39,378 bases of DNA, taken from contig JAICKK010000011.1 in assembly GCA_025927955.1 (NCBI GenBank), positions 1 through 39,378 on the forward strand, read 5' to 3'. The translations under genes and the position numbers were made by a program. The stretch is from Nocardioidaceae bacterium (GTDB taxonomy: Bacteria > Actinomycetota > Actinomycetes > Propionibacteriales > Nocardioidaceae). Shown here piece after piece: positions 6,721-9,913 of this stretch (its first letter is position 1; the number at the start of each line of letters is the position of its first letter). The notes under the pieces were generated by a model. It saw only the letters and a program-made list of their open reading frames with translations, was not told the DNA's origin and did no database searches.

Positions 6721-7185
6721 ATGATGAAAGAGGCAGTTGACGCTGCTCTGCCGCCGGTGGGCGCGCTGCTCCGCCGGCCGGCGGTGATCGTGCGTCATGA
6801 GGTGATGGCCGGGCTGCGCGAGGCGGGCTTCCACGACGTGCTGCCGGCGCATCTGGGCGTCTTCCAGCACCCGGGCCCCGACGGCCAGCGTCCCGGGATG
6901 CTGGCCGTCCGGACGCAGGCGTCCAAGCAGGCGATGAACCACCTGCTGCACCAGCTCGAGAGCGGCGGCTACATCGTCCGGGAGGCGCATCCCGACGACC
7001 GCCGCACCCGCGTCGTGCGGCTGACCCAGCGCGGCTGGGACGCCGCCGAGGTCATCGGCCGGACCACCGCGCGGGTCGAGGCGGAGTGGTGGGAGGCGCT
7101 CGGCGAGGAGGTCTACGCCGACCTCTCCCACGCGCTGGCCCGGCTGGAGGACGTCCTGGACAAGCGGCTCAGGGGGCGCGCCTGA
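6721..7185 (+). CDS. MarR-family transcriptional regulator
   Basis: The 154-residue protein has the MarR plan: dimerisation helices at both ends and a central winged helix-turn-helix. The recognition region is MLAVRTQASKQAMNHLLHQLESGGYIVREAHPDDRRTRVVRLTQRG (about 60-105), where PDDRRTRVVRLT is the wing with the usual DxR pattern. The two tandem ATGs (6721, 6724) are both possible; AGGA stands too close to the first, which slightly favours the second. An AT-rich inverted repeat upstream suggests autoregulation. The inducer is unknown. It is followed by a strong hairpin before the leuS leader, so it is its own transcription unit. Confidence 0.9.
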   Translation: MMKEAVDAALPPVGALLRRPAVIVRHEVMAGLREAGFHDVLPAHLGVFQHPGPDGQRPGMLAVRTQASKQAMNHLLHQLESGGYIVREAHPDDRRTRVVRLTQRGWDAAEVIGRTTARVEAEWWEALGEEVYADLSHALARLEDVLDKRLRGRA

Positions 7186-7245: not shown

Positions 7246-7251
7246 TAGTCT
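7246..7251 (+). promoter_or_regulatory. -10 element of the leuS leader transcript
   Basis: TAGTCT is followed after 6 nt by ATG 7258, the first codon of the leader peptide. Transcription would therefore begin at or next to that ATG. No -35 consensus is visible because the preceding bases are the terminator hairpin of the upstream gene. Confidence 0.5.
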
Positions 7252-7257
7252 CGGAGC

Positions 7258-7299
7258 ATGAGCATGCACACGCGACTGCTTCTTGGCCGGCCGCGTTGA
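7258..7299 (+). CDS. Leucine-rich leader peptide of leuS (MSMHTRLLLGRPR)
   Basis: This 13-codon ORF contains three consecutive leucine codons, CTG CTT CTT (7276-7284). CTT is a rare codon in a genome this GC-rich, so charging of its tRNA would be sensitive to leucine supply. The stop TGA is at 7297-7299. If the transcript starts at about 7258 the first ATG is leaderless; alternatively ATG 7264 (MHTRLLLGRPR) has GGAG 7 nt before it. It lies 97 nt before leuS and immediately before mutually exclusive RNA pairings and a U-tailed terminator, which is the textbook layout of ribosome-mediated attenuation. A leader peptide for a leucyl-tRNA synthetase gene makes direct regulatory sense. Confidence 0.8.
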   Translation: MSMHTRLLLGRPR

Positions 7300-7359
7300 C
7301 CGTTGCCCCACCGGGCAGGACGGCGACGCGGCTACCCCTCCTGCGTGAGGGGTTTTTTT
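7290..7359 (+). promoter_or_regulatory. leuS transcription attenuator
   Basis: Two alternative pairings compete. GCCGCGT (7290-7296, the last codons of the leader) can pair with ACGCGGC (7326-7332). GCAGGA (7315-7320) can pair with TCCTGC (7339-7344), which lies in the terminator stem-loop and would break it. GCCC/GGGC (7305-7308/7313-7316) can sequester GCAGGA. Stalling at the Leu codons would cover or free the first segment and shift the balance towards readthrough into leuS when charged tRNA-Leu is scarce. The direction of control is inferred from leader position; the pairings are read directly. Confidence 0.7.
7334..7359 (+). terminator. Intrinsic terminator of the leuS attenuator
   Basis: ACCCCTC (7334-7340), loop CTGCGT, GAGGGGT (7347-7353), giving a 7-bp stem, is followed by an unbroken run of T (7353-7359). 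A T-run this long is very rare in this sequence. It lies 38 nt before the leuS start codon. Confidence 0.9.
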
Positions 7360-7396
7360 GTGCCCGGAAGAGCAGCGACGAGGAAGAGTCGAGAAC

Positions 7397-9913
<2,517 letters not shown>

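Follow-up and report, generated by a model that had tools for sequence, protein, structure and literature searches.

A leucine-codon leader and two conserved hairpins upstream of leuS in a Nocardioidaceae bacterium: a probable attenuator without a conserved antiterminator

The leuS leader region

The window (the whole 39,378-nt stretch of DNA that was analysed, from a Nocardioidaceae bacterium) carries the essential gene leuS, encoding leucine--tRNA ligase, on the forward strand at nt 7397–9913 (ATG at nt 7397; TIGR00396, 939.6 bits, cut-off 548.4). Upstream of it is a MarR-family gene that ends at nt 7185, and a tRNA-Ala (GGC) lies near the start of the window (nt 67–141). The region just ahead of leuS, nt 7246–7396, had originally been predicted to hold a 13-codon ORF containing CTG-CTT-CTT, two pairings, and a hairpin followed by a T-run. 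Each of these features was located by direct reading, with its coordinates correct, and all lie on the forward strand.

The region begins with a -10 box, TAGTCT (nt 7246–7251), which ends 6 nt 5' of the leader ATG and marks a probable leaderless start. The leader ORF, MSMHTRLLLGRPR* (nt 7258–7299), has 13 codons and a TGA stop at nt 7297–7299; its control codons, CTG-CTT-CTT, occupy nt 7276–7284, the last being the rare CTT (nt 7282–7284). A first hairpin, H1 (nt 7290–7332), has a stem of nt 7290–7298 with nt 7324–7332 that overlaps the leader stop codon in the window; its core is GCCGCGT (nt 7290–7296) / ACGCGGC (nt 7326–7332), and the GCCG/CGGC base is nearly invariant. It is followed by an intrinsic terminator (nt 7334–7359), in which the sequence ACCCCTC-CTGCGT-GAGGGGT (nt 7334–7353) forms a stem of nt 7334–7340 with nt 7347–7353 and a loop at nt 7341–7346, and the T-run (nt 7353–7359) ends 37 nt before leuS. 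The antiterminator originally proposed consists of GCAGGA (nt 7315–7320) as its 5' side and TCCTGC (nt 7339–7344) as its 3' side, which make six perfect pairs in the window.

A scan of 1.5 kb gave two overlapping terminator-like matches at the leader compared with 0.3 expected, and the fold of nt 7286–7362 has a z-score of -4.96, with none of 200 shuffles equally good. Within the leader region no sigma-70 -35/-10 pair passed a strict scan, so the promoter call rests on the conserved TAnnnT position described below, and no Rfam family reached its gathering threshold there. A T-box was not recognised by Rfam, the sole gathering-score match in the window being a tRNA.

Conservation of the leader and its two hairpins

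Relatives were drawn from 110 leuS loci, namely the best 80 of 593 from named genomes and thirty from 58 genomes (own genome included), at least one genome being in both; two loci with less than 200 nt upstream were left out. An ORF with LL is present upstream of leuS in 100 of the remaining 108, and 97 of these 100, which have either LLL or a correctly placed -10 box, were taken as comparable leaders (that of L024 assigned by hand), while three weak LL leaders (L049, L055, L056) were set aside. The eight loci that lack an LL leader were inspected by eye. One (L113) has an LRL variant leader with both hairpins; another (L042) appears degenerate; and the remaining six (L010, L029, L070, L071, L087, L094) show no leader or hairpin pair in the 330 nt upstream. 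Some of these six encode a LeuS that is 77–79% identical to that of the window.

Alignment A1 comprises 91 leaders, i.e. the 97 minus five that the T-run pattern missed (L033, L044, L048, L054, L060) and minus one duplicate. The second set, A2, was chosen from covariance-model matches and contains 64 loci (61 distinct sequences), of which two have no LL leader and 59 were scored; it was aligned to the covariance model and leans towards it. The original prediction of a leucine leader peptide with the synthetase gene behind it is borne out by the 97 leaders among 108 loci and by TIGR00396, and the terminator covaries in the 91 leaders of A1. The sequence-level condition under which the original prediction would have failed, relatives lacking a Leu leader or the terminator, was thus not what the comparison showed.

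In A1, 96.2% of cells across the 16 pairs of H1 and the terminator are paired, and 10 of the 16 have changed on both sides, giving 145 double-changed cells. None of 500 shuffles reached any of five measures for these helices, and slid versions dropped to 41–57% paired. Changes on both sides were seen in seven of the nine H1 pairs in A1 and in six of nine in A2. RNAalifold, run on A1, recovered 15 of the 16 pairs and no other helix, and the 61 distinct sequences of A2, aligned to the model, agree on the pairing of both hairpins. In a covariation screen of all column pairs the four strongest were in the H1 and terminator stems; other pairs scored up to 0.26 and were canonical in a fraction of at most 0.89, mostly far less, and we think that these scores are lineage effects.

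The spacing of the elements is fixed at two points: 5 nt separate the last Leu codon from H1 in 85 of 91 leaders in A1 and in 59 of 61 in A2, and 1 nt lies between H1 and the terminator in 86 of 91 (A1) and 49 of 61 (A2). The span of H1 itself ranges from 21 to 47 nt (A1) and from 25 to 63 nt (A2). With H1 folded out, a distance of 6 nt separates the last Leu codon and the terminator hairpin in 80 of 91 leaders (A1) and 47 of 61 (A2), and the standard deviation of the codon-to-terminator distance is 1.3 (A1) and 0.9 (A2), compared with 6.9 and 9.7 when H1 is counted. The leader stop codon, located by a crude pattern, ranges between -3 and +22 when measured against H1, so it is the Leu codon, not the stop, that sets the geometry. 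With a spacer of only 1 nt, too little loop remains for pairing between the adjoining bases of the terminator arm and the 3' arm of H1, and together with the fixed spacings this suggests, from comparison of sequences, that the working part is the junction between ribosome, H1 and terminator. The 5-nt spacer seen here may resemble that of frameshift-stimulating hairpins. No pairing partner was identified for the bases after the T-run (nt 7360–7363 in the window), which across relatives are often GTGC or CATG.

Control codons and leader start

Of the 82 LLL leaders, 77 have CTT as third Leu codon, whereas CTT makes up 37 of 6083 Leu codons (0.6%) in leuS of 92 scored loci and none of 65 in leuS of the window. 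Among the 59 scored leaders of A2, the Leu run ends on CTT in 53 cases and on CTC in 6. A different role for the run would be control of translation, the Leu codons pairing with the ribosome-binding site of leuS, as has been proposed for the LEU element, a conserved pseudoknot, of a different gene, leuA (PMC1262725). The run is rich in pyrimidines and the stretch before leuS in purines, but a conserved intrinsic terminator stands between the two, and the leader stop is separated from leuS by a variable distance in relatives (59–230 nt as measured), so that this kind of control is hardly to be expected.

In 96 of 97 leaders the end of a TAnnnT motif lies 6 or 7 nt upstream of the start codon, while among 927 other ATG or GTG triplets in the same regions only 4 have TAnnnT 4–8 nt upstream. 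This fits the original suggestion that the leader may lie at the 5' end of its mRNA. The leuS leader of Streptomyces lividans TK24, LeuL2, was reported as leaderless in 2021 (PMC8079986). Given the conserved -10 spacing, with which a leaderless transcript agrees, and this published case, translation in the window organism probably also begins on a leaderless end. That such a start would be unusual for an attenuator, as first thought, does not hold in this group, since the accessible text of PMC8079986 lists eight leader peptides of S. lividans and calls seven of them leaderless.

Search for an antiterminator

In the classical scheme, a ribosome stalled on the Leu codons would free GCAGGA (nt 7315–7320) to pair with TCCTGC (nt 7339–7344) and so block the terminator. 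The two pairings predicted to be mutually exclusive do cross in the window, but only that of nt 7290–7296 with nt 7326–7332 is conserved in relatives. Across A1, the proposed antiterminator is paired in 39.5% of cells compared with 37.0% after shuffling (36 of 500 shuffles reach the observed value), and sliding it by one column does as well (40.5% paired; covariation 0.077 vs 0.071 unslid). Two covariation measures were reached by only 10 and 8 of the 500 shuffles, scores that relatedness alone can cause.

A first test, the probability of the terminator at equilibrium for every state of the ribosome, was discarded as uninformative (median 0.98 throughout), because five attenuators of Escherichia coli also gave 0.95–1.0. 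The test used instead was occupancy, the extent to which the terminator 5' arm is paired to upstream RNA immediately before synthesis of the 3' arm, when the leading edge of a ribosome of assumed footprint is at +12 from the start of the last control codon. The positive controls, from NC_000913, were all above their shuffled upstream sequences (0.43–0.54): thrL 0.77, leuL 0.60, trpL 0.71, hisL 0.64 and pheM 0.75, hisL being imperfect as it is 0.63 occupied even with the ribosome at its stop. The leuS leaders had a mean of 0.20 vs 0.41 shuffled (11 of 90 above shuffles, 12 of 90 over 0.5) and the A2 leaders 0.18 vs 0.45 (7 of 59 above, 3 over 0.5), a comparison that favours a low observed value because shuffling the upstream RNA destroys the rest of H1 and itself raises the shuffled occupancy. 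Six distinct rows with MRAVRLLLSE/GPR leaders gave 0.03–0.14 vs 0.38–0.68, none being above. At later edges the leuS leaders were still not above shuffles, with 0.27 vs 0.34 at +24 (32 of 88 above) and 0.25 vs 0.32 at +27 (27 of 85 above).

Other pairings were no better. Pairing between the top of the terminator and the 3' arm of H1 was rejected, as its energy (-5.70) was weaker than that of permuted partners in all 2000 permutations (-6.30) and than that of shuffled loops (-6.26). Allowing any upstream pairing gave no gain in the loop-shuffle test (45 of 90 above), and among upstream-to-terminator column pairs that are canonical in at least 0.75 the best covariation was 0.085 (background sd 0.038). 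For the leuS-leader family, no antiterminator mutually exclusive with the terminator was found.

In the window itself the best upstream duplex with the 5' arm and loop is stronger than in shuffled loops (-13.3 vs -10.6), and occupancy of the 5' arm is 0.53 once the edge has reached +24 or +27 from the start of the last Leu codon. At +12 or +15 it is only 0.03, so the terminator would be opened near the stop codon and not at the Leu stall. Modelled in this way, the window species could have a private antiterminator that forms when the edge is at least 24 nt past the last Leu codon, near the stop codon. The classical scheme, which has on its side the six perfect pairs, these window values and the antiterminator stated for two Streptomyces leuS leaders (PMC1262725), is nonetheless unlikely, given the low pairing in relatives, the 1-nt gap between H1 and terminator in 86 of 91 leaders, and the occupancy of 11 of 90, 7 of 59 and 0 of 6 rows above shuffles compared with five of five E. 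coli controls. What had been described as a complete attenuator consequently retains its leucine leader, its conserved terminator and leuS, but the antiterminator is not conserved and the E. coli-controlled test found none in the family.

Similar leaders upstream of cimA and ilvB

Twelve loci have a leader with Ile codons, a GCGCG hairpin and a terminator upstream of cimA (citramalate synthase). One is in the own genome (L209 from 1327, before G000:C267:28549), and the others are L183, L185, L186, L188, L190, L192, L193, L196, L199, L200 and L202. The gene was confirmed by TIGR00977 in the own genome and in L185, L188, L192, L193, L199 and L202; the other five were assigned by sight or by likeness of the leader. 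The last codon of the run was scored as ATT in 9 of the 12, the control codon of L200 having been wrongly picked in scoring. A search of the open-access literature, from which subscription journals are largely missing, found no paper on a cimA leader, and the main text of PMC1262725 contains neither 'cimA' nor 'citramalate'.

The own genome also has a leader before ilvB, MRFEILVCPGRRC, with the codons ATT CTC GTA (L211 from 1324, before G000:C267:12386), and related ilvB leaders carry rare ATT, GTA and CTT codons. Leaders of ilvB are already known in Actinobacteria. Occupancy was 0.14 vs 0.28 shuffled for ilvB leaders (2 of 9 above) and 0.24 vs 0.28 for cimA leaders (5 of 12 above).

Comparison with known leaders

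Attenuators of leuS were predicted in 2005 for S. coelicolor and S. avermitilis (PMC1262725), so this kind of leader is already known and that of the window is a further member of the type predicted in Streptomyces. As in leuL2 of S. lividans and the leaders of those two species, an LLL leader (MRAVRLLLSEPR there, MSMHTRLLLGRPR in the window) precedes leuS and is followed by a hairpin and U-run terminator. LeuL2 is leaderless, a start with which the 6-nt -10 spacing in the window agrees; loci with exactly the MRAVRLLLSEPR leader were recovered by the covariance model of the window family. The differences are that leuS of the window is only about 40% identical to that behind MRAVRLLLSEPR, and that the antiterminator published for the type finds no support here in either group. 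In the accessible part of PMC1262725 the label 'classical attenuator' rests on two Streptomyces sequences, and its central part is unsupported by the present analysis. The open-access literature, again with subscription journals largely missing, yielded no experiments on leuS leaders.

With the thr, leu, trp, his and pheST attenuators of E. coli, the last of which also belongs to a synthetase operon, the leuS leader shares codons for the amino acid concerned and an intrinsic terminator between leader and gene. Unlike the leuS-leader family, all five pass the occupancy test for an antiterminator. Polycysteine leaderless ORFs of mycobacteria, reportedly described by Canestrari in 2020, are likewise leaderless short ORFs that read an amino acid, in their case cysteine. 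They have been described as translation attenuation (PMC13236596). The ilvB1 leader of Mycobacterium tuberculosis is also a short actinobacterial ORF with branched-chain codons and a terminator; it stands before another gene, has a proposed mutually exclusive anti-terminator and is not called leaderless in the accessible text of PMC13236596. Changing its four branched-chain codons to Ala in a reporter led to low, inducer-independent expression (PMC13236596), evidence of codon dependence that belongs to ilvB1.

Proposed mechanism

The leuS leader is very probably a transcription attenuator that senses leucine tRNA, in which stalling, readthrough and the response to leucine would proceed as follows. 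The transcript would begin at or next to the leader ATG, and a ribosome would load on the leaderless end and read the 13-codon peptide. With charged tRNA-Leu plentiful, it would pass the three Leu codons, finish and leave, after which H1 and the terminator would fold and most transcripts would end before leuS. With charged tRNA-Leu short, it would stall at the Leu codons, above all at the rare third CTT exactly 5 nt before H1; termination would decrease and more LeuRS would be made. In this way the cell could tune LeuRS by the very tRNA that the enzyme charges.

Since one defining feature of the classical system fails at the family level, it is more accurate to say that the leader works like an attenuator than that it is a classical one. 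A model with no antiterminator lacks the step that would lead from a stall to readthrough, which counts against attenuation, and this raises the testable question of how a stalled ribosome turns off a terminator without a conserved competing RNA fold. The switch is most likely something at the junction of ribosome, H1 and terminator rather than a classical antiterminator. Tentatively, the terminator may be blocked directly by the stalled ribosome, with H1 as a folded spacer and not a competitor. A ribosome that stalls on the rare CTT and has H1 docked at its entry would sit against the emerging terminator and prevent its folding; once it had passed and left, the terminator would fold freely. 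If this is true, the design would be a general actinobacterial one, built alike in the cimA leaders with ATT and in the ilvB leaders with rare Ile, Leu and Val codons.

A further reading is that the terminator is constitutive and partial, a fixed readthrough setting the level of leuS and the peptide being a relic or an aid to ribosome loading. The finding of no antiterminator in leuS leaders is compatible with this, as is the S. coelicolor ilvB leader, in which changes of the candidate codons were without effect, as cited in PMC1262725. The evidence from related leaders is mixed, since the codon changes in M. tuberculosis ilvB1 abolish induction (PMC13236596). A relic should not, however, keep a rare codon, and the last-Leu CTT and the 5-nt gap are kept across genera; moreover, the codons of the cimA and ilvB leaders fit the pathway of the gene behind them. 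A constitutive terminator is thus very unlikely, and attenuation remains the preferred reading.

Distribution and LeuS lineages

Covariance model R1 had a single match at E <= 1 in the own genome, at the leuS leader of the window. Among 394 genomes of the class, 215 match at E <= 0.01, which for leuS can only be a maximum, as the weak second matches precede other genes; of 20 picked places, 19 were before leuS and one before ilvB. A wider search of 149 genomes in the phylum gave matches in 16 at E <= 0.001, including eight outside the class. Of the latter, two precede leuS and three ilvB, two stand in front of a CimA-like gene (28% identical to CimA), and one gave no hit. This CimA-like gene is probably leuA; one of the two leaders before it is MSQNLLLT, and the other was not read in frame.

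The element is present in many actinobacterial families and stands before two divergent LeuS lineages that are only about 40% identical (L166–L171 are among such loci). A leuS gene was present in 63 of the 64 loci of A2 (counted as presence in the locus only), 34 being closest to LeuS of the window and 29 to the second type. It is as if leuS had been exchanged behind a leader that was kept, or the leader copied. One genome (G263; L163 and L164) has both types of LeuS, each with its own leader.
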